A DNA stretch of 64,000 nucleotides from contig OU744452.1 of the NCBI GenBank assembly GCA_916610825.1, forward strand, positions 6,253,021 to 6,317,020, given 5' to 3'. The translations under genes were made by a program, and so were the position numbers. Below are positions 5,691 through 42,115 of the stretch, in pieces; position 1 is the stretch's first letter, and every line of letters begins with the position of its first letter. The DNA is from Haliclystus octoradiatus (lineage: Eukaryota > Cnidaria > Staurozoa > Stauromedusae > Haliclystidae). The notes below the pieces were generated by a model, which saw only the letters and a list, made by a program, of their open reading frames with translations, made no database searches and was not told the origin of the DNA.

Positions 5691-6977
5691 GCTGAACCTT
5701 GCACCTGATTCCTTTGTTTGCGATGCAAGCATTCTTGTGATATCTCTTTGATCTGCTGCAGAGGAAAGGACTTATTTTGTGTTACATGTTGACCATTAAA
5801 AAATGCAAACATGTAATATATCAAATAATAATTATTGGTAGAAGCGGTTATACAATCTAACGTCGGGATGGAACGTAGTTCTGAAATTTGAATGGTTGGT
5901 CCATGTGTTTGGAAATTCTAGTATAAACTTTAAAATTCCTATCGAAATTTGTCGATAAAATTTTCGAAAGATGCTCAAAGCTGAAAAACAATGGGAAAAT
6001 GCAATGAATTACTAAAGACATAATATCAACAAGCTGTCTCTATTCAATGTTTTGAAGTTTTTATTTGACCCAAAGACATTTCAGCCAGTAAACTCATTGA
6101 AGTCAAATTTAGTTTCAAGTCATTTATTCAAGATTCGAACGACCTTACCAGTAGCTTAAACATGTCATCTTCTCAATAGCTTCTAACTAACAAATTATTA
6201 ACGCACTCGTCAGAAAATGGTATCATATTAAATAGGTAGTATCAACATTTGTTGGACAATTTTTCAATTACTCTATCGTCTATTTAACAATTAGAAAACA
6301 TGCCCCAATAGTTATCAAGGTCTTCCGATTTTTAAAACACAACAGTTGAATATTTGATGATGGTCACAAAACTGCAACTTCCACAAAATAGTAAAGTTAA
6401 GCAAGTGAGCTATTGAGTATCTAAAAATATATTAATGTTTGCAGTATGTAATAGAGAATTTGGTTGTATATAAACTTTAGCTGACTAGATTATCTATTAA
6501 ATCTAATTTGAATAAAGTAGAAACGAAACAATTATCAGGAGATTGTTACACAAGAACTTAAATTGTGTATGAAAGAAAATCCACGGGGGGCATAAAATAA
6601 AAGCTTTTGAGGAAGTATAATAAATTACGATGAAATCTTCCTAAAGTGTTTAAATTCGATGATGGAGTTACTTCTATAAACATGCTTGTTAGAGGGATAG
6701 TGTTCAAAGCACTGTTATCACTGAGCAATTTGATTGCATTCCTGTGTAATCGTTTCGAGAAATAACATATATATAAGTTTCGATTGAAGCGACATTGAAA
6801 CAATAATAAATAATTAATAGATGTTTTCAAATTTTAAACAATAAATAATACAATGCGTTCGTAATAATCTATATCTATATTCATATTGCATAATCTACAG
6901 GTGACGCAGTCGACAAATTTTGGTTTGAGAGGCAGATCGCTTTGAAGATTTAATTTTAACGAAACCATTGTTAAAAT
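5691..6977. other. no gene seen; probable upstream region of the PAN-domain exon
   Basis: AT-rich. The 90-codon frame at 6558-6830 (-) has no recognisable domain and no splice context. The last 100 bp should contain the promoter or 5' UTR of the PAN-domain exon, but no clear TATA box or initiator stands out. Confidence 0.4.
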
Positions 6978-7316
6978 ATGGCACATAAAAAGTTATTCGT
7001 CTCTGTTTTGGTATTTATTATGATAATGTTTCAAATTACTATTGGTAACTGCTGTGGATTATATCCAGCTAATTCAATAAACTACAAAGGAAGGTATTTT
7101 ATTAACTCTTTCATAGACAGTATTGAAACAATGAAGAAAACAAATGTGGAAAACAGCTTTATTTGCAATGCAATATGCAGACATACAAATGGTTGTGTTG
7201 CAATTGAATTCAATAATGAAATTGGCGTATCAAACAATTGCAGATTATTCAACTTGACAAATATAAAATCCAGCATCAAGTCAAAAGCCAGGTCAGATGT
7301 TATTGTCTACTTGAAG
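6978..7316 (+). CDS. signal peptide plus PAN/Apple-like domain, first coding exon
   Basis: The exon encodes 113 residues. It starts MAHKKLFVSVLVFIMIMFQ, a typical hydrophobic signal peptide ending near the ITIGNC segment. Then follow six cysteines spaced as in PAN/Apple domains, including the motif around C-N-A-I-C-R-H-T-N-G-C-V-A-I-E-F and a later N-C-R-L-F. PAN modules bind proteins or carbohydrates outside the cell. The exon ends after VIVYLK at a donor AAG|gtgagg in phase 0. The ATG at 6978 is the first in frame and directly precedes the signal peptide. The TSP1/F5-8 exons downstream on the same strand may belong to the same gene, but their first visible acceptor is not phase 0. A linking exon is missing or this is a separate gene. 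Confidence 0.75.
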
Positions 7317-10300
7317 GTGAGGCGAGGAGATGAATATAGATAATATATTCTATACTCAGCTCAAGGTGTTCTTATGACATTTTTCAAGATAAGATGCGTT
7401 TTCAAATAGTATAGATACACCCCAAATAAATAATGCTCAAAATTGCGCGCAAGCTCAATCCTGAAAAATATTTAATGATATCTAGTCTGTAAATTTATTT
7501 GCCAATTTGTAATAATAACATTTGATATATATACTTATATACAGGAAAATACTTAAGGCCAGCATTGGCTTTTCCAAGCACAGAGCGGAATTTGAAATTT
7601 ACTTAAGATAGATCTTAATATGAACACTGACTGCGTATCTTCATCGAACTGTTCCTGAAACTGCTTGTAGCTTAAGAAAGTAAAAGTACATATTTCCAAG
7701 TGCCGTCAATCATCTTGGTCAACTTCATTCGTAAGATAGAGGGTAAGTCTAAAAAGTCCCGCAACTTACCCTTTTTCTACAGCACAATCATTTTATTTAC
7801 TAAATTTTGATTTTTTACTGAAATATTTTTTGGCCTTCGTCGACTTGTTGTTTTGTTTTGAATTCAACTAGTACAAAAAAAAGATCTACCCTGGATCCGC
7901 AATTACATTTTCGCAAATTTGTAGACCGTTGTCTGACATAGACAGAGCAGTAGTTAGCAGAGTATTGACCATGTATTTTGAGACATATGTAGCAACCCTT
8001 ATAAAGCTAGAGAGTTAGGCGCCTTATCGATTTCTTGTTTGCCAATCCTGAGAAAGGCTGAAGCTTGAAATGCAAATCATTGTTTCTTTGCTTGTGGCAC
8101 AAACATTTATCTATGGAGTTGAAATCGGCTAGATATACTCTGCACATATCAAAGACTGATAGTTTTGACAATACAACGAGATATTACAAATTTGTGTTCT
8201 TTTATGGCAACTATTTCTTTGCTGGAATATTATATTATAGTGTTATCGTTTCTAAAACCTAAGTGCTGGAATACATTTATCAAAGATACAGTTTACATTT
8301 CCACTAATTAAATATCTCAAGAAGAAGCAAATACACTGTTATATGCTTATTTATTTGGTAATGTCGTTAAATTTTTGTTAAATATTCTTACATTGATTAG
8401 GCTGCCTGGCTACTAGCCTGCTCGCAGATTCACAGTCAAGGTGTAAGCTTTGTAAACTGTAGAGTCTGATAACTCGAAGAAAAAAGCTTGCTTTTGCTGA
8501 TTCAGCATGGTACGTGGAAAGGTGTAAAAACTATTGCTTTACAATCTTCAAGTTAGCAGACTCTGGTAGTAATGGTGTATGTGTTTAATTAACACAGGTT
8601 TCATAATGTTGCAAATAGAAGAAGGCATCCAAAGCTGTATAACAATGTCCTACCTTTATGCCATCTATGTTTACATATTGAGTCTATTAGTCTAGCTTAT
8701 AACACATCTAGTTCTCTTCCATGTAGTTTTCTGTCTTAAAATTCAGGTATATATACATATCAAAAGTTTTCGACTATAACTGCTATCTTAACCATATTTT
8801 CTGCTGACTGTAAAAAATATTTAAATTTCAAAATTGACCATGTAATCAAATGTTTGAAATTTATATGAAATCAAAAATCATCAATAAAGCAATTGAAATG
8901 TAATTTGCCATGAATGACTAGTGTTTTAGTAATGTTCGAAGATAATATCGTTGAGAATATTAATATTTAACAAATAGAAAACAGTGCTTTGTCTTATGTA
9001 CTGTGATGCGAACACTCTGCATGAAAAATAAGGCCTGATAGAGGCCTAAAATTCTCCCTTCACCAAGAGAGTGATTTTGGCATCTGGACGGTCTCGTAAT
9101 AGTACTTAACACGGATAACCATTTTCAATTTCTGTTATAAAATAAATACATTTTTTAACGAAGTTGATGAAATGGCAAGCTCGTAAAGTTATAACGTCAC
9201 TGTCAACACAAAGTTAGTCAGTTTTTAAAATAATGTCAATCTTGATTGTCGAATTAGACAACATGAATGAGAGTTCAAAACCAAATTAAAGAGATTAATC
9301 TGTACATATAACTATCTAAGACATCTTTTTCAATATGTTCTTTTGTTATTTACATAGTGATTGGTGCACAATTTCTATACATGCAGTACCTTTTTGGCAC
9401 GCTAGTCACTGAAGAAGATAGGATAAAAACACACTTGTGATTTTCTAATGCACTCTCCTTTTGCATTTAAATAACCTCTTGTGTGACGTAAAGCCATTAA
9501 AAGTATTAAAAAGCATATCAAGGTCGATTATTGTAATTGTATAATAACTAAATTGAATCGATCAATCTGATTATTAGATACAACGAGATTATAAAACCAC
9601 AGTTTCATTAAATCAATTGAAATTGGAATTTTAATTTGGAATTCTTGGATGAATATTTCAAATTTGATTAATAATTTTCATGTACATTAATGTATGCATA
9701 TGTTAGTCAAGTAGAAGTTCTAATAGGGTTCCACTTACTGTACAATGGAATTGACATATATTTTCAATAAAAGCCATAGTTTGCGCTCGAAGGCGATTTT
9801 TAGAAATCGCGATAAAGCTACTATTAGAAAAAGACAGAAATAAATCGCCCTGAGAGCCTGTGTAAGTTTGCTACCTTATTGCATTCTTGCACGTGCTCTC
9901 TTGTGCGATATAAAGCTGTCAGTTTCAGGGGCATGCCTCTTTACTTCACCTCACATTGAAATACGTTTTGGCTACAAAATTTCTGATCTTCAAGTTTTTT
10001 TGGTAGTCTTTTACGACTTTGAAACAAATTTTAGAAATAACATATTATTTATATATATTACTTAATTAATTGTTATTATTTCATTTTTCTATGTATTTAT
10101 TTCTATGTATTTAAATGTTTTCATAGATGGAATGCAAACCTTCAGAATTAGGTAAACTCAATTGTTGTTTAATTCGTGTACTTCGAATAATCATACTTTT
10201 GTTGTCTCAATATATATTAAAACTTAGCCATAATAGCAAAATGAATCATTGATGCAATATCCCTGAGGAGCTAGGTAATTTCAGAGGCATATATACATAA

Positions 10301-10781: not shown

Positions 10782-13700
10782 ATCAGTCAATGCAACATAC
10801 ACGGCTTGGAAAAATGTATCTGCTTGTTCTGAAACATGCAACAGTGGATTGATGACTCAGATTCGTGAGTGTGTCCCCCCCTCGTGCAATGGAGAACAAT
10901 GCAAGGAAGAAACTGAGAGAGTGGTTCCATGCATCGCACCTCCATGTCAAGGTAATATTATTGATTGAATTAATGTACTAACTGTGTGACTTTATACTCT
11001 ACTGACTGATGAACGTTATATTTGAATGATGTCAAGTAAGCTGTCATGAAATAGAATCCTCGGTAGTCAAAGAGCATTCTTAAATCTGTCTATTATTGAC
11101 TCTTATTCCTAATTTAGAGAGCCCGCTCCGATATTTTTTGTTAAAATAAAGATTTCGTAACATTTGTCAACTGAATATAACACTTAAATATAGAATGCAA
11201 ATCACATTACGTATATGAAATTGAACGAATCGCTTAACTATCTGTGTTATCATCAAAGAAACAGGCCGTTCAAAAGACCATTTCAAATCAATATGTTATT
11301 TAAAATTTGTTTGATGAAATCGAAAAAGAATTACCGTATTTTAAAACAACAAAGGTGCGAAAGACATTTACTTACAAAAGCGTTATTCATCCTGGTAACC
11401 TAATTAAGAAACTGAAAATTTTGCCAAGTATGTTGGAAAGTTTGTAATCGGAATTAATCAACACAAATTATCTTCAATCATTAGGAACTTTTGTTGCTCT
11501 TACATTTATCCGAAATTCCGTTCCGAAGGTATTTTGCCATATTTAGTAATGAAACAGTCAATAATTGGTTGATACTAATGGTTGACCGTGCCTGCTGACA
11601 TTACAGGAATAGATTCTAAAAGCAACTCATGGCCGTTACTCAGAGCTCTTTGATGTAACAGACACTATCGTACAATGAGACAACAAGAGGTGGAAGAGAA
11701 GGTTTACGTTTTAGTTTACTAACACATATAGATTTACAGGAAATGAATAACAATAGACAAATATACAATTAGGTGAATACAATAATCAATCACAACAGTA
11801 TGTATAATAATAATAACATTTATATTAAGATTTATATAGAGCTTCACAATTTCTAACAATAAACTAACCAAAATATAAGAAGTTACTGGAACCTTTATAA
11901 ACTTATATTTTATATGAATGATGAATCAATGATATATATTTGTCGAATTGGAATTTGACAGGCAAATAAGCAAAAAATCAATTACACTTATATACAGTGT
12001 AAATAAATCTTAAAATTTGTGCTAATGATTCGCTATTTAATCTAAATTGCAAAAAGCAAGTGATGTAGTCATGACCACACTGGAATGACCCGGTCAATGA
12101 TATCTTATAGAAGCCTGAAAATGGAACATTTTATTATTTCATGTGACAGCATGTCCTCCTCACTTAATTCCATCATCCACATATACGCGTTTTCATGTTC
12201 CTTGAGTTATCTAATATCTAATTGTCACAATTACGGTAAAATCAAACATTTCAATTGCAGTTTGATCTTTATTAAAGAAGTGGGCTTACCTACAATTTCT
12301 GCTAACACATTTCGGTAGACATTCTACTACCCTCTGTAATATCTTATTACATTTACAATTGTGATATACAATGCGAGTCTTTTGTTCTTTTTTGGGTCTT
12401 CTTAGATTTAGAAATAGATCTGCTTAACAAACCTTGCAACATCGGTCCAGTACCGCAAAATGGTTGGGGTTATGGATGTTCGAAAGCAATTGATGGCAAA
12501 CAAGGTGGGTCATGTAATGCTGATGGTTGCAGTGGTACCTATGGAAGTAATGGTGTAAACTATTGGTGGTATGTTGATCTTGGTGCACAACGTACAATAA
12601 GTAAAGTAATGATTTACAACAGAGGGGATCTAGCATCCCACATAGTCCATCTTGATCATTTCACCATTCAATTGCAAAATCAACCAATGCCAGACCAAAC
12701 TAACGCAAAAATGTGAGTTATCAATCAAGACAGTATTAATCATTACATCCAGTAATCATCAATAGTAAATGTAGTATCCGAGACCTATCATTGTCGATCC
12801 CTGAGTAGGATGAATGCAACTAACCTAGATTAGGCCTGTTAACTATGCTTGGTAATATAGTTAACTACTTTAGCAATGATTTACATAGACTGCTTTCGAG
12901 AATATGAATATAAACTATTATGCAATAAAAAACTTTAAATAACATTTCATCGTTAGTATAGCAAGATATTTAAATAGAATTTTCAAGCCAACAAAGTCAA
13001 ATGTGGTTTTTGGGCTACAACTGGTCCCGCGATTATTACAGAAAATCATACAATGTTGAGATATATTCCTGGTTAATTGGTAAAAGTGGGTTTAAAAAAC
13101 GTTCAAAATTACTCGAGACCATATCGGATGAGTACAACTCTTTGCAAATTGATAAATGTACAATAGAGGTCTTTTTTCTTTAGCTAAAATTTTCTATGCT
13201 TCGATTATTCTGTCAAACAATCAACTTTTGATTATTCCTTTTATACACTGCGCGTGTAATAAAGTTCTGCACTGAACTCTCTATTCTGCCTGTATGTGAT
13301 TCAATATAAAGTTTCAAACTCAATAATATTGTAATTTTGAGATATAAATTCAATAAATCACAAACTGCTATAGTCCATGAAGGCTGTGATCCAGTTTCTT
13401 TGCATAGTAAACAACACACTTCTATAAAATAATACATGACTTCTTACTAATATCCTGATCAAACTACGAATTGTTATTTGTAATGTCAATATCGAATTGT
13501 AATAACGTCAGCGTTATCCAAACCTTTGTTGCTGTTGTTTTGTATATATATCGTACCCATATAGGTGTTATAATTGCTGTGAATCAATAATACACAAGAA
13601 TTATAAACTGTAATAATTCGTTTCGATTCCCTACATACATACTATAAAGAGTATCCTACATTGTGGATTACAAAGCTATTTAAATAAATAGAAGAGGCGT

Positions 13701-33128: not shown

Positions 33129-34978
33129 ACTTACTTTTTTATGGATAATTTCAGATTTCGAAATTTGACTGAGTCGTAATTTTTAATAATTGATGTGTTT
33201 TAGCTTCCTTTTAGCACATAAAATATAGCTTTTGTAGTATTTCTACGTTAAATGCATATATTGGACGGCTGCCTCAGCGCTTGGTATTCAGGTATGCACT
33301 GATTCACAACACTATCCATATAGCTTGAAAAATTGCATTCACGTTTAACGCTTTGGTCTATTTTATGCCAATAATATGCCGTTATCTAAACAGTTCAATC
33401 GACACAATTGATGTGAAATGAATAATATCTTTATGGAGGAAATGGTTAAGATGTTTTGATTATTTGTACATCGATTCAATGCGTACTGTGTCTCATGTTC
33501 TCCAAAGTTCATTCTCGTTATTATACAGTGATAGTCAGCTTAGTCAATAGTTTAATTACTAGTGATCTGAAAGTTTTATCACTAAATATTCAGTACTCGA
33601 CCTACACTAATTGCTAGTTATTTGAATAATGATCTCAACAAACTCGGCCCAAATTAAACCCAGCAACGCAGGTAGCTCATTGCTAATAATAAATAAAAGA
33701 AGATATCAACTTTAGCCAGAATCACAAGTGAAAAAAATGTGAATTCATATTTTCGTATCAAGACATTCATTGTGGTTTCAATGGAATAATTAATTTGCAC
33801 CAGTTACTTTTTGTTTCTTGAAAAAGCCTCTATGATCGGAAGTACTTATTTTCAGTACAGTGTTTTCCAATTATTACTTTGTTGTGATTATGAATTCCAA
33901 CTTTTCGTAATAATTGGAATTCAAAAATGGGATTATATATGTTATATTCATAGAAAGTCTGTGTGCTTCACTTTTAATTTGCTAAATGTCTTGTAAAATC
34001 AGGTGATATGTAGGCTGAGCTGGATAAACTGTCTGTATTTATTATTTAAACAATTTCTAAAATAAAATGGATTCAAATACGAGTCTCATTGTATAGCAGC
34101 TCAAACTCTTGAAAGAGAAAAACATGCTCCATTTTTGTTTTGCCTATTATAAATTCAAATTCCTTGTCGCAGAATGCTGTTCTTTGAATTAGCGATATAT
34201 TAGAAAGTCTACTTACTTTTTGTGTAGTTATTTTAATATTATTTCTTCCTTAACGACAGTGTTTTTCCTTGCCATTGTTCTTTATCATTCAAAAATGAAA
34301 GTTTATCTTAGTATTCATCTGTAATTACTTATTGTATTAATCTCACTGAAGCAATCATATCTACATTAATAATATCTAACAAACTCAATATATAGTAGTG
34401 GAAAAAGTTAAATATTTTAGCTTTAAACTGTGATATCTTAGTATTTCTATGAGTAATTACGCACAATCTATAGTGTATAATCTAATAGTTAGTACTGCAA
34501 AATATATAGGCAATAGGCATCAACACAGGTTGAGCTAACGTGTGATGTTTTCACTACTGAGCATTCGGAATCAATTACCATCTCATAGATATGCCTCTAT
34601 TATCAGTAAAGAAACGGTCAAGGAACAAATCTGTCGCACAAAGACCAAATAGATTTGCCATTCGCATAGATGATAGATAATAAAATCACAAGTAAACTTC
34701 CTATTCTTCATTATGACATACAAAATAATGTTGAAAAAGTTGGATTTACCTAGTTGTAGAATATAATTATTAGTAATTCTGTGAATTTACAATTATTTCA
34801 AAACACTACATGCTGAATTTTTTTTCCTCTTTTTCAGCATCAAGTACACTTTCAATATATTTCATTACAGACCATTAAGGAACAAATGTGTCTCAGGCAG
34901 GACACCCGTAATTGTAGATTAATCAGATAATGGAATGTATCAACAGAACTCTACTTCCTATTTTTTCTGTGTCCATAG
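33129..34978. other. no gene seen; upstream region of the cationic-peptide gene
   Basis: AT-rich. Frame 33811-33996 (+) is not supported. The last few hundred bases should hold upstream control elements of the gene starting near 35013. Confidence 0.4.
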
Positions 34979-34985
34979 TATAAAA
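34979..34985 (+). promoter_or_regulatory. TATA box of the cationic-peptide gene
   Basis: TATAAAA lies 34 bases before the A of TCATTCC (35011-35017), which matches the initiator consensus YYANWYY. A splice donor follows at 35072. Together these define a conventional promoter and first exon. Confidence 0.65.
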
Positions 34986-35012
34986 AGCTTAGTCAGGCCT
35001 TGTTTTATTATC

Positions 35013-35071
35013 ATTCCTCGGTGATATTGAGAGCATCAGAAATCAAAGAAAGAATTTACAGTGCATTGAAA
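35013..35071 (+). other. 5' non-coding exon of the cationic-peptide gene
   Basis: Inferred from the TATA box and initiator upstream and from the donor GAAA|gtaagt at 35072. The next acceptor, cattttgttag-like at 35656-35666, leads into the exon with the start codon (35667-35754). The 5' UTR would then be about 83 nt. No ATG precedes the coding start in this leader. Confidence 0.5.
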
Positions 35072-35690
35072 GTAAGTAATCACTATATGTTATATAGTGG
35101 AAGCAATAATGTCATAGTGGACTATAACATCATTTTACGTTTCATTTAACTGAGCTAATTAATCATTATTTGCAATTAGAGACAAGGAATTACAATATTG
35201 TATGTGAGAATGTATAATCAGTTCTAGATATAACAGTAGTGTTTGTGATTAATTACAGGCTAAGAACACTCCCAGACTCACTTATATTCAAAGAATATCG
35301 ATTATTTTCATGCTATAGTAATAGCTGTATGATGCCATTTATAGTATTTGCCTTCACTTCCAAATGTTGTTCTTTAAATTATAAAAGAAAGATTTTTAAT
35401 AATTTTCAAGACTAATTAATGAGCCTTTGCTTTCCAATGCTATTAACTAAACAAATCTGCATATATATATATATTAGCCTATAAAAGTTAAAATTTAGAA
35501 TGATAGATTTCTAGCTTGCTGTTATTCTATTAAGTAGATTATAATGATGTATTTGGACTCTAAGTATGCTAAACTACGAAATATGATGTCTTTAAAATTA
35601 CTAAAATATCGTGAATATTTCCTATTTTACATATTTTTAACCAAAGCATGATTGTTCATTTGTTAGAAATTCAATTGGGAATTATTCATA

Positions 35691-38600
35691 ATGACGAAAA
35701 CTCTGTTTTTGGTATGCCTTATTGGTCTTTGTATCGCAACTTATTTTGTTAGAGGTAAGTAAGAGATAAATTACACAAATGTTTATAGAGGTTATTTTGT
35801 TGGTAGTACTGGATTTATTCAAAAGTTGTGACGCCATTTTCTACTAACAAACAAACATTTACCAACAAGTAATGTCATGATACAAAACATCGAAATCAAA
35901 AATGATAAATTTAACATAAGGATGTGTAACACTTTACATCAGCGTTTTTAGAGGAAATGTATTGCAATTATCATGCTATCATACAGTATTGTATAATGCA
36001 ACCCAAAAAAAGGAATGTGGGGTAGGCTTTCAAACATAATTACCTTTACTGTCTAAAGTTTAAAACCATGAATATACTAGAGCACTTAATATATCTCTCT
36101 GTTCGGGCTAAGAGTGTGTTCCCCGGAGGACCTTTGAACCTCAAGGAAATAATACTCATTATTTGTCTAGGCTATTCTCTATGACAATATTCCTTGATTA
36201 ACTATCTTTGTAAAAATGTGTATTAGATTTTTCCATTAAACTGTTTTGAATCTATAATTCTCAGGAGAAAAAGAAGATGAAGAAATCGAAGACGAAGGTA
36301 TAACATAAATATTCAAAGTTTCTATTTATTTAACCTCTTACCTTCGGTTTTCATTTAATTCTGTTCGTTGTACGTACAGCAGATGTGCTTTTATGGATTA
36401 TTTGTCTACAAAAGAAAACATTTTATTCTGATAAATAGAATTAATTCAAAATTTACAAATATTTCCAAAGATTTTAGGAGAGAAATTTAAAACTTTTATG
36501 TAATCAATTCACCTTTATAATAAGGTATTTTTCCTTAAATATGTTTTTAAGCAATTTAATCAAGTTGACATTTACTGCATGAATTTTCCAAAAGGAAAAA
36601 AGAAGAATCTTATGTTGTGACTCTAATCTCCTTAAAAAGTTACAGATTTCACTACGAAAATTCAACGGAGACGCTATTATTACTGTGCATCACTATTGCA
36701 AATATTTGTAGGAGATATATTGTTATAATTTTGAATTATTAAATAGAGATTATCATGATTCGTCCGGAAGTGAAACCGAACATTTCTTTATTGAGTTGTT
36801 AGCAATATGTCTTAATAATCTTAATAAGTTACATATAATACCAAGTTATGGCAAGATAATAGACAAGATTATATTTTCGGGGATTCTGGCCGTTTGTAAA
36901 ATAAAGTTTTCTCGTTATTCATGCACCATTCCGTTTTTAAATCTGAAACATTTATTTACCATAAAACGATAATGCAACGATGTCAGAGCCTCAATAAGCT
37001 CACCGTCCTTGTTATGAAAATTAGAAATTCCATCATTCTTCGACTGGTCTGACGCTTATTTTCAACTTTCTTTAGAGACATTTGTTGCTATAGCTCGTTA
37101 GATGTTGTTACACCTGGCATTTTAATAAAGGTTGTTTATACTGTGCCAACTTATGTATATATGACAACTCAGCTGTCAAATTGCTTATGTCAACTTTTTT
37201 ACAAATTTTCAGAATAAGTTTCAGAACGTAATGTTTCCAGTGCCCACATTAATTTGGAAATTGTAAGGCTTAGAATTCAGCCCATTTTTTAATTGAATAA
37301 TTATTCATGCTATATAACAAACACAAATTCACAAAGTAACGACGCAAAAGCAAATTGATTGTCACATATTTCTAATGTGTAATTTCACATAGTTTTGAAA
37401 GAAATGAAAAATAAAAAAGTGCAAATTTGAAACTGCCCGTGATGGTTAACGATTTGTATGACAAGCATTTATTGTAATAACTTTTTGGTTTTTATTTTAT
37501 TTGAAATGCTCGCAGTAGATGTGAAGTAAATGTACCAAGGTACCAGATGGGCCAGATACAAAATTATTTTCGAAAATCGGTTTCCAAAGAATTCATACGT
37601 TTGTGTTTCTAGATGATCTATTAAATATTGACCTGGAACAAGTCCAGTGCGCATTTTTTCATTTTTTTTTTCTTGGGATTGACTCTAAGTTATTAACGGA
37701 TTGATGCAAGATCATTTCCATTCCAGTTTTATATCAGTTAAAAATGTCATTTTTGGGTAAAACAGTTGACGTCTATGCTCTGTATGTTGGCAATATTTCG
37801 TTTTATTTTTAATTATGTTTTTTAACTCATTAGTTTTCACAAACTTTATATAATATTTATTAACGAGTCCTCCAAATATTTCTTAATCTAAATAATCAGC
37901 TTATAATTATTATAATTAATTGATTTATTATTTCTGTCAATGAGACTGATATGCTTTGGTATTACGTCATTCGATACTCACTTCATATACTGTAATATGT
38001 AGCTTATGTAAATCTACATGTGATTTCATTATGGTTGAAACACATATTCATTCAAATATCTTCAATAGAATTTAATTACTTTCCCATCATACATTGACAA
38101 CCCAAGTACCCTAATAATATGGGCCTTTTATTTCTTTGAAATTATGTCTACTGTTCCAAGCTTCCTTAACGAAGTTACAATTTTGATTTTAATTTTTTAT
38201 AATTTGAGGTTTACAATCTGAAGAAAACGATGCTGCGAGAGGTATAGTACAAAAAAACTATCTATGTATAAAAAAAAACATTTAACTTGCCACCATGATA
38301 CGTAAAGCACAATGATTCTCATTTCAAAACTAGGTGTGTTGATTTTGTTTTCATTTACAAACAATAGGGTCGATTAAAAAAAATCAAAAATAATTTGTTG
38401 TACTAAGTGACTTGATTACCTTTCCAAGTTTCTTCGATAAACGGATAAACAGCTTTTGAGAGATAAGTATTTCAAAAGAGAGAATTTTCGAAAATGGGGA
38501 ATGAAGGTGAAGTGCCATAATACTGTAAAAAAAGTGTGATAAGATCACAACGACTATCGAGCATTCGTTCATACGAACAGAATATTCAAAATCGTGTTGT

Positions 38601-41600
38601 TGTTATGGGGGAATGCTCGATAGCTTTTGTGATCTTATCGCGCTCACTCGTAGTGATAACAATTTTACAGTATTACGTCACATATCTATGATTCTCTGTT
38701 TTTGAAGAATTGAGATTCTCACTTGTTCAAATTTCTCAAAAATACTTGGCCGTTTATAAAAAAAATCTTCACTCAGTACAATAAGCATGAGGTGAACATT
38801 TTTATTTTCGATTTAATATGAATTCCTATTAACATATCCACTGAAAAACTGGTTCGATTGGACAGCTCTAGCTTTCCATTTGATGTAATAACGAGATGAT
38901 AGGCTATGTTTAACGAATATAATGATGTATAGGTTTAATTACAGTAATAGAATCACCTATCCTATTTAAACAGCAATAGTAAACAATCATTATCACGATC
39001 TACATTGAACTTTTCATTGAAGTGTTTACAAACTCAGTTTACACCTCTTTGTAAAGGTCACGCTAAGCAGCAACCAACTGTATATATTGGCCCATTGACT
39101 ATATCATGTTAATTTGTATTGAAGTAAGCCTCCATAGACGTCAATTACTTCATCTTTGTGTCTAATATCATATAATCACGTAAGTGGCTGCTATATACAG
39201 GTTTCCATGTTCCCAATGTTGCGATAGAAGAATAGCTACCTCTCTCACTTATGCGCGGCCTTATATGCATTGATATCAACTATTCTGACTGACACAAATA
39301 AAGGTAGCAACCTATGAGCGATCAGTATAACATTCTATGATTTTATATATCGCATATAGATATATATAGATAAGATCTAACAGAACAAATCGTATTCAGT
39401 GTCTGCATTTGACAAAGCGAAATATAACAGACGTAGTCAAAAGCTACATACCCGTAAATGTTAATACTCATTTCAGTTTAAATCCAATACTTGCTGACAA
39501 TTAAATTAAAAATTTATTTTTCTTTAGTTAAGAAGATTATTTAGTTTATTTGTCTAATGACTGCATTACGCATGATGCTTTTAGGAACAACTATGAATGT
39601 GTAATTTTTGACTTCTTTTAACAAATATATAATGATAAATAAACGCAAATATCAGGCATTCGTATGTGCTACCATTAGCTTCATTCCAAGCCGATTTAAT
39701 CTGTGAAAATCTATTGAATTGCCCATTGTAATTTGAAAACTCTGATATGACACAGATGTTGTTTTCAATCTATATAGTGAACTTTTTCACAAACTTAACT
39801 AAGGCTACGGTTATATGGACTCAACAAACTCAATTCGAACTAGATGCGACACCGAATAGCATTAAATTCGCATTTGGGGTTATACAGACGAACCAAATGT
39901 CGAAGATCTCTAAAAATCTCACATGATAGAAAGTAGTTTTTTTGGAATTATACCGTATGGTTTGAAACCACAGTGTTTTGTTTGCATTATAATTCACTTT
40001 TAGCGATTTTTTCGTTCTATTTTGCCTATCAATAGTTTGAAACTTGAATGAAATAGTAATCTCAAAGGTTTGTAAGCATTTCTACGGGATACAGTTTTTG
40101 TTCTAACAAAGCATAGTACTCAGAGCAAATTAAATGCAAATTTCCGTTAAGATAAGGTATGATAAAAGCGACCCCAATTCTAGTGCTGATACATTGAATA
40201 AAATAAAACGGTTTTAAATGTTTTAAATCATGATTTTGGAAAACATCAGCTTCCCTATCAGCCATCTTTCAATCATATAAACAAGTCACCATTACAACTT
40301 CTGAAAAGCGATGTTCTTTCCATCGCATTGCCATGGAAACTTTCTTTAAAATAATTTATGATTTGCACATCCCCCGGTTTATTGCCATATAAGGTAGATA
40401 TATGAGCTCAGTCACGGCACCGAGAGTCAAATGTATTCAATTCGGTGCGATGATAGCTCGCTCGTATAACGCGGCGATAAATTTAATTCATAGAGAAGAG
40501 CTCCGCACGTCGAGGCTTGAAGTGCGGAGCTAGCTTGACGCACTTAATGTATTTTGAGGAACGTTCATGAATCGAATGATGTTATACGAAGCGCACTATC
40601 ATGAGATTTAATTCGAATGAATGAATCAATAGAGTTCGGTGCTTCCATAACCCTAGCCTAACTCATCTTGACTTAGTTATAGCACGCTAGGCAGTCCCTT
40701 GTTCACTGATCAGTACTGACGATTTCTAATGGCCGGAAACAAGTACTTGTCTGCTGCTATATATATTTAAATTTAGATTATCATAGTAGTACAAATCATT
40801 TGTATTGAGCAAAATTTCAAACAATTTCAAACAATCACAGTACCGGCCTTCATGTTTCAGGATTGGTAAATTTATCTGCCTGTTTGTATTACACTGTTAA
40901 ATAAAATGTGAACTGTCTGGAGTGTTCTCATCATCAATTATCAATACTGTTGATTATTTGATGTTATTGTATGCCATTTCATATCCATTAAATACATTTG
41001 AATAATGCCACTAAATAATCAATTATACTCCACTTCTATGATTCTCCTGGAGTCTGGAGCTCATAAAGATTTTGTAATAATGACAAAATTCCTCCCAATT
41101 TTGTACTGAAAAGAAGATTATTATATTTGAATTTAGTGTCATTAAAGGAACGCACTTCAAGGAAATATGTACGTTAGAATGAGGACGACTGACCCAGTTT
41201 CCTCTATGAAAGAGTTGTTTTTGCAAATATGGGAAATTCTCTGCTTGTGATCCCGGGGAGGGGACTTCCATTGCGCTTTGATGGGGTCGTTGAAATGATG
41301 GAACGTTGGCAGAATGACCATAAAAATGTTGCACATGATGAAAAGGATACCCCAAATATGTTTTTATGAATGACAGATTTAACCAAAACAAAGTAAAAAA
41401 AGAAAAATTCATATAGGCAGAATTTGTTTTGCAGAATGAAAAATTGCAAAAGCCTCAAAAGGATACCTCAAAAACTTTTTATGACTAAGCATACCCTAAC
41501 AACTTTTTCTGGATTTTGAAAAAGTTACCCTTGAATATTTGAACGTCCCCGTATATCAAAAGTATGGAAGTTACCCCCCGGGCTTGTGATTATCTTCAAC

Positions 41601-41822
41601 CACGAAATTGAAAATAATATACTTTCGTAGGCTATACAGTCGTGATTCAAACCCGTTTTATTTTTTACTAAATTAGATGAAGATGCAATACTCTATTCAA
41701 TGGAGAATCAAGACCCTAAGCCATGGGGTCGTCGTCGTCGACGCCGTCGTCGTCGTTTTGGTCGTCGTCGTCGTCGCTGGACAATCAGCGGTGGCGGTGG
41801 ATGGTCTAGAAGCTGGGGTTGA
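35691..41822 (+). CDS. precursor of a secreted Arg/Trp-rich cationic peptide, four coding exons
   Basis: Coding exons are 35691-35754, 36265-36297, 38209-38241 and 41677-41822, 276 nt giving 91 residues. All three introns are phase 1 with donors AGAG|gtaagt, GAAG|gtataa and AGAG|gtatag. Residues 1-21 (MTKTLFLVCLIGLCIATYFV plus R) form a signal peptide. Residues 22-57 are a strongly acidic segment (16 Asp/Glu). Residues 58-91 are cationic: K-P-W-G, nine Arg, F-G, five Arg, W-T-I-S, four Gly, W-S-R-S-W-G and stop. The C-terminal Gly after Trp is the signature of an amidation donor. Signal peptide, acidic pro-part neutralising a cationic amidated C-terminus is the layout of antimicrobial peptide precursors; Hydra arminins share it and, as I recall, a KPW start. 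Homology is not shown. A DNA-condensing role is the alternative, but the signal peptide argues against it. Confidence 0.8.
38519..38674. mobile_element. palindromic MITE in intron 3 of the cationic-peptide gene
   Basis: The ends are AATACTGTAAAA and its inverse TTTTACAGTATT. Inside, TGATAAGATCACAA and CTATCGAGCATTC on the left pair with their inverses on the right; a stretch of about 17 bases is missing from the left arm. Non-coding. Confidence 0.75.
39801..40661. mobile_element. TIR element family A, diverged copy in intron 3
   Basis: Left end AAGGCTACGGTTATATGGAC and the right end, inverse of GGCTAGGGTTATGGAAGCAC, resemble the ends of the element at 27949. The interior shares 'cccccggtttattgccatat', 'agctcgctcgtataacgcgg' and 'gaatgaatga'. 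It contains an added perfect 11-bp hairpin, AGCTCCGCACG... to ...GTGCGGAGCT, at about 40499-40532. Confidence 0.65.
41252..41582. mobile_element. CCCGGGG-ended MITE (hAT-like, 8-bp duplication) before exon 4
   Basis: The ends are CCCGGGGAGGGGACTTCCAT and the inverse of CCCGGGGGGTAACTTCCAT. The flanking direct repeat CTTGTGAT (41244-41251 and 41583-41590) is a perfect 8-bp target duplication, as made by hAT transposases. The frames on the minus strand at 41023-41458 overlap this element and are not taken as genes. It ends only 94 bp before the coding exon of the cationic peptide. Confidence 0.8.
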
Positions 41823-41982
41823 AAGGATGTTACTTTTTGGTAAAATTCTTATCTAAAAGAAGCAGTCATACTTTATTTATTAGTATTTGTTTTGAACATC
41901 AAATGAAACCTATGTTATCATTTAATGTTCATTTCATGCATTTAACGTATAGACGATGTGTATCTTATAATCTGTAGCAATT

Positions 41983-41988
41983 AATAAA
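41983..41988 (+). other. polyadenylation signal of the cationic-peptide gene
   Basis: AATAAA lies 161 nt after the TGA stop, and another AATAAA-like hexamer follows near 42010. The 3' UTR would be about 180-200 nt. Confidence 0.6.
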
Positions 41989-42115
41989 AATTTCATTCGT
42001 GTAACAGATAATAAACCTTTTCCAACATATCTGCTTGTTTTTCAATAATGATTAACTCTCTTACAATACATGTGTTTCGTAAATATATGAAGTGATCTGA
42101 GAAAAATTCCACAGA

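Follow-up and report, generated by a model that had tools for sequence, protein, structure and literature searches.

A predicted arminin-like family of acid-masked, arginine- and tryptophan-rich peptide precursors in the stalked jellyfish Haliclystus octoradiatus

The stretch of DNA analysed here, called the window, comprises 64,000 nucleotides of the stalked jellyfish Haliclystus octoradiatus (contig OU744452.1, positions 6,253,021 to 6,317,020 of the forward strand; C8:6253021-6317020 in the numbering used below) and belongs to chromosome 7. Positions 34979-41988 of the window hold a gene predicted to encode a short secreted precursor that ends in a peptide rich in arginine and tryptophan. 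An earlier reading of the letters (the original prediction) had claimed every element of a working gene at this place, from TATA box to poly(A) signal, and the TATA box, exon-1 donor, signal exon, two microexons, last exon and AATAAA were all located in the sequence at the positions listed below, in which the support for each feature is given in brackets.

34619..34634, + strand: upstream element CAAGGAACRAAYYTGT, with a looser second copy near 34876-34891 (upstream slices; blastn against the 5.51 Mb paralog)
34979..34984, + strand: TATA box TATAAA (sequence; TATA-donor spacing compared with four paralogs)
35008..35071, + strand: non-coding exon 1, start approximate (sequence; exon-1 end comparable in paralogs)
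35072, + strand: exon-1 donor GTAAGT (sequence)
35667..35754, + strand: exon 2, end of the 5' untranslated region and signal peptide, donor in phase 1 (paralog identity; paralog signal exons)
36265..36297, + strand: exon 3, acidic microexon EKEDEEIEDE, phase 1-1 (36-nt and 27-nt microexon counterparts in four paralogs)
38209..38241, + strand: exon 4, acidic microexon LQSEENDAAR, phase 1-1 (33-nt paralog counterpart)
41677..41822, + strand: exon 5, end of the pro-part and peptide PKPWG(R)9FG(R)5W...SWG, stop TGA (sequence; 41 family last exons)
41983..41988, + strand: poly(A) signal AATAAA (sequence), with a further AATAAA beginning at 42010

The ATG is found at 35691, and the four coding exons (35691-35754, 36265-36297, 38209-38241 and 41677-41822) join in frame through phase-1 introns into the 91-residue product that had been claimed, MTKTLFLVCLIGLCIATYFVRG-EKEDEEIEDE-GLQSEENDAAR-DEDAILYSMENQD-PKPWGRRRRRRRRRFGRRRRRWTISGGGGWSRSWG, a plan matched in paralogs. 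The 14 Arg in two blocks (9 + 5), four Trp and terminal Gly that had been noted were also borne out, with one additional Arg near the end. No dibasic site lies between pro-part and peptide in this product, which ends directly in Trp-Gly without the sequence Gly-Lys-Lys (GKK). Exon 2 is 77.8% identical to the paralog at C8:5.51 Mb over 35664-35768 (blastn); its acceptor at 35667 and the transcription start appear to be the least certain points of the predicted transcript. Exon 4 was not recovered by blastn against the same paralog, and its counterpart there, a 33-nt exon encoding GLEYEEDDVEQ, was found by a microexon scan; both acceptors stand just before GTTTA. An inner AG was considered as the exon 4 acceptor and rejected, the paralog supporting 38209. 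The gene observation is confirmed as real, while the transcript itself is a prediction; the locus is more than a chance assembly because the C8:5.51 Mb paralog has the identical four-exon plan and phases. The window product matched none of the Pfam families and its paralogs gave only weak Pfam matches below the cut-off, and comparison of a paralog with solved structures returned 18 matches with E values of 0.09-0.73, none of them convincing.

The layout of the promoter is also comparable between paralogs. The distance from TATA box to exon-1 donor is 93 in the window gene and 97, 85, 77 and 77 in four paralogs, as taken from printed positions. The upstream element, AAGGAACAAA with TGT directly after it, stands twice before the gene, once at 34619-34634 and once near 34876. 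It occurs in four of five upstream slices (the window and three of the four paralogs) and is missing from the 18.59 Mb slice. A blastn match to the 5.51 Mb paralog at 34598-34642 spans the first copy.

The genome, 261,861,806 bases in 33 contigs, was searched for relatives. The window product gave 18 exon matches at E values up to 10, the last ones weak; two other protein queries, run to an E value of 1, returned 9 and 52. The pattern PKPWG occurs at 20 sites against 12 for a reversed control pattern; 18 of the 20 fall in the family set, and the other two are L053, a copy with a changed frame, and L046, which is either unrelated or too short. Candidates had to begin with a P-rich stretch preceded by D, E, A, S or K and to contain 22% Arg + Lys or more. 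The GKK end and other amidation-type ends stood outside this filter; the queries with 9 and 52 matches themselves ended in GKK, and the window query, which has no such end, still found GKK members. Left out of the counts were two unrelated open frames (L034-3314, L041-5313), L053 for its G-run frame change, L046 as PKPWGKK only and too short, L042 for its different C-part, and frames without RRR, except L026-8578, L050 and L060, which were kept by hand.

The set assembled in this way numbers at least 41 related last exons, which correspond to 36 distinct peptides, for example PKPWGRRRRRRWRYVRRRYWGWRRRRRRGKK and PKPWYRRRRRRWWGRRRRRGKK; more copies may exist, because the searches score best candidates only. 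By hand count 19 of the 41 are on C11, 17 on C8, four on C4 and one on C10, with clusters at C11 6.63-6.71 and 14.46-14.56 Mb and at C8 5.48-5.83 and 18.54-18.59 Mb. The gene is not a lone one, a point that the original prediction had no means of seeing. The proposal made there that the mature peptide starts near KPW gained support, since KPW lies within the first six residues of 28 of the 36 distinct peptides. A GKK end is present in 25 of the 36, KPW and GKK together in 22, and an amidation-type end G[KR]0-2 in 30; D or E precedes the start motif in 35, under a filter that also allowed A, S and K. Upstream of the paralogous last exons, the fetched regions contain signal exons and then acidic microexons. 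Four coding exons with phase-1 introns are found in the window gene and four clade relatives, and two C4 genes also have four coding exons. Arg is encoded across the family by 156 CGT, 89 CGC, 87 AGA, 48 CGA, 7 CGG and 2 AGG; because all six codons are used, Arg appears to be kept by the protein and not by a pure triplet repeat.

Several members depart from the common form. Two Cys occur in the C-part of six of the 36 distinct peptides, at C8:18.54-18.59 Mb (L027, L028, L029), C8:5.51 Mb (L026) and C11:13.47 Mb (L064), which suggests that in these the Arg block has gained a disulfide loop. One of the 41 is a lone exon, PKPWIRRFRHRWSVTFGR, on the minus strand of L026 (C8 ~5,509,421), which has a strong acceptor, ttttccag, and is nearer to arminin 1a of Hydra in look; no family-like signal exon was seen between it and the 5.51 Mb gene, and it is possibly an alternative last exon. 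At C7:23.937 Mb (L042) an acidic stretch is followed by NDPNPRPWWSGRRRRW and a longer C-part containing Cys, with no Pfam match; its product is possibly another defence peptide.

To compare the two halves of the precursor, nonsynonymous (dN) and synonymous (dS) divergence were estimated between paralogs. For the signal and acidic part, the window gene and its nearest paralog differ by a dS of 0.91 and a dN of 0.17, a dN/dS of 0.19 (Fisher p 2e-5, from rounded counts), and this part is under purifying selection relative to that paralog. In blastn between the same pair, the strongest shared stretches are exons 5, 2 and 3 and the upstream element, with weaker matches in introns. Charge is also balanced along the precursor, with -14 in the pro-part of the window product and +16 in its mature part. 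Signal peptide, acidic region and cationic C-terminal region are present in all nine completed gene models, where charges range from -9 to -21 in the pro-part and from +7 to +25 in the mature part, and the sums fall between -5 and +4. Pro-part and mature charge correlate at a Spearman coefficient of -0.85 in the nine models and -0.80 in eight after removal of one near duplicate, although the rows are related genes and the p-values overstate the evidence. The near-cancelling charges fit an intramolecular mask.

Taking together the observed gene structure, the family, the constraint on the signal and acidic part, the charge balance and the shared termini, the gene quite probably encodes an antimicrobial peptide precursor whose product is secreted, masked by an acidic pro-part and amidated, and which belongs to a large arminin-like family. 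The original prediction had recognized the signal peptide, the acidic pro-part, the Trp-rich cationic C-terminus and its Gly of amidation type, all of which are supported here; the host-defence role that it drew from them holds up as probable and keeps the standing of a proposal. We infer transcription, the cleavage site, amidation, the target and killing along the following lines. The signal peptide would route the precursor into the secretory pathway, where the acidic pro-part (-14) could mask the +16 Arg/Trp peptide until cleavage behind an acidic residue, D|PKPW, frees it. Cnidarian precursors are known to be cleaved behind acidic residues. DE cleavage motifs are mentioned in one report (PMC12013895). 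The C-terminal Gly, within GKK in 25 of the 36 members and bare in the window member, would then become an amide. Domains of the amidating-monooxygenase type (Cu2_monoox_C) have 23 matches in the genome, in a family that also covers other enzymes. The Arg blocks would attach to the anionic surfaces of microbes, with the Trp residues inserting into the membrane or assisting in its crossing. An arsenal of variants may have arisen as the genes duplicated in tandem and their last exons changed rapidly. Synthetic nona-arginine and Arg/Trp peptides are cell-penetrating or antimicrobial; the window peptide is like them in its Arg9 run with Trp, with membrane binding and uptake to be expected, and differs in being gene-encoded, with an acidic pro-part and an amidation-type end.

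A number of results weigh against this proposal. The Arg runs contain furin/dibasic-type sites, and a cell that has such proteases might cut the peptide up. An amidation-type end is missing in six of the 36 distinct peptides (L034, L036, L037+3609, L051, L060, L072), and in the L053 copy at C11:14.537 Mb a G-run after PKPW changes the reading frame, so that it looks like a decaying copy. The exon plan varies, two modelled C11 genes having three coding exons and the C8:20 Mb group carrying signal and acidic parts in one frame. The pattern of selection is not uniform either: against the nearest paralog the C-part has a dS of 0.91, a dN of 0.44 and a ratio of 0.48, which is not significant (p 0.11), and against three 18.5 Mb paralogs the ratio is 0.57-0.98 for the N-part and 0.18-0.33 for the C-part. 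The dN for N-part versus C-part is 0.17 versus 0.44 in the nearest pair and 0.41-0.43 versus 0.43-0.48 against the 18.5 Mb paralogs. An arminin 1a query found nothing in this genome, although an empty answer from this search shows nothing.

Other origins and uses of such a sequence were considered. It could be an open-by-chance array of CGT triplets beside unrelated splice-like sites, since Tandem Repeats Finder detects an array of GTC (16 copies, 82% matches) at 41728-41776; this microsatellite artefact was rejected on the paralogous exons, their phases and the mixed Arg codons, the promoter layout and the synonymous-biased change speaking against it as well, and it is scarcely credible. Signal peptide, acidic spacers and amidation ends would also be expected of neuropeptide precursors, in which the Arg runs would be cleavage sites and the products short amidated peptides, and the member at C4:28.8 Mb does consist of RRR-separated short stretches ending in FWGKK. 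However, eight different residues (F, I, L, N, R, V, W, Y) precede the amidation Gly, while neuropeptide families generally keep their C-terminal motif, and KPW, which stands at the start before the Arg runs, belongs to the best-conserved parts; we regard this reading as very improbable. A polycation for some other use, either a component of nematocysts or venom or an adhesive, based on cation-pi bonding, that the attachment stalk secretes, is unlikely, if less so. The density of Arg and Trp suits cation-pi bonding and cell penetration, and the animal is a sessile stalked jellyfish, but defence is the better fit for short one-peptide precursors with an acidic mask, C-parts that diverge strongly and, in 30 of 36, an end of amidation type.

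The proposal of an antimicrobial precursor concerns function and plan, and is separate from common descent with the arminins. Arminin 1a, of 31 residues, starts with KPW and ends in GKK (table in PMC12011183). In arminins the acidic N-part is conserved and the cationic C-part variable (PMC4820302). According to PMC10945409 they are confined to Hydra, where they form clustered paralogs, 9 and 12 in two species. The Haliclystus genes share with them the acidic pro-part, the cationic Arg/Trp C-part, the clustered paralogs and, as it appears, a variable C-part, and with arminin 1a the KPW start and the GKK end. They differ in their Arg runs of up to 9 (in four of the 36 distinct peptides), in their host, a member of Staurozoa, and in number, with at least 41 last exons; the window member itself shares KPW with arminin 1a and ends in WG instead of GKK. 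The comparison with arminins made in the original prediction is therefore supported, while its remark that the peptide is unlike known families was too strong, arminin 1a having the KPW start and, like most of the relatives, the GKK end. Placozoan arminin-like AMP1-4 also have a signal peptide, an acidic N-part, a basic C-part and a C-terminal Gly for amidation, but their precursors have about 150-250 residues and match by plan only, and the KPW...GKK frame is not mentioned in the available portion of that paper (PMC12013895).

Whether these likenesses reflect descent was approached by global alignment of arminin 1a and its shuffled versions to 27 of the 36 family peptides. None of 1000 shuffles reached the score of the whole 31-mer, a result partly built in through the choice of the 27 for their PKPW start. 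Once KPW and the three C-terminal residues were taken off, the score was equalled or exceeded by 52 of 1000 shuffles. The resemblance to arminins rests mainly on termini and shared plan, because the score of the core is reached so often and the genome search with arminin 1a was empty. An independent stalked-jellyfish family that came to share plan, KPW start and GKK signal with Hydra arminins is, by a little, the outcome we lean towards: GKK is a common amidation/dibasic end, and published searches, as the available part of PMC10945409 puts it, found no arminin homologs outside Hydra. Against convergence stand the whole-peptide score, with the reservation just given, and the common plan of an acidic pro-part, clustered paralogs and an apparently variable cationic end. 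The alternative that arminins predate Hydra is tentative and rather doubtful; the family would then go back to an ancestor shared by Hydra and stalked jellyfish, with an expansion to more than 40 copies in Haliclystus whose last exons became acid-masked, amidated oligo-Arg/Trp peptides of cell-penetrating make-up. The family is best called arminin-like and is not filed as arminins. No described Haliclystus antimicrobial peptide was among the literature matches listed, and the string PKPWGRR occurs in no paper of the literature searched. Three computer-predicted antibacterial peptides are counted from Staurozoa in the part of PMC11820242 available, and these may overlap with the present family.

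Elsewhere in the window, pieces of mobile elements lie at 20.9-26.6 kb (-) and 56.7-60.4 kb (+), with an RNase H match just under the Pfam cut-off and a PIF1-like helicase match above it. The long frames at 56.7-60.4 kb resemble a reverse-transcriptase element by eye only; two frames were scanned and gave no such Pfam match. Frames at 6975-7343 and 12306-12716 (+) contain a PAN domain and an F5/8 type C (galactose-binding) domain, above the Pfam cut-offs. In the same genome, the mitochondrial contig of 18,316 bases carries a cox1 frame with eight TGA read through, reversed and adjoining cox2, and only two tRNAs (ARAGORN), features to be expected in a medusozoan other than Hydra.

Hydra antimicrobial peptides are cited as taxonomically restricted defence genes, as stated in the part of PMC10945409 available. 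A large KPW...GKK family in another cnidarian class makes that claim directly testable. The family would supply natural, gene-encoded peptides of the Arg9 type with a built-in acidic mask, and would be a clear example of last-exon diversification in clusters of defence genes.

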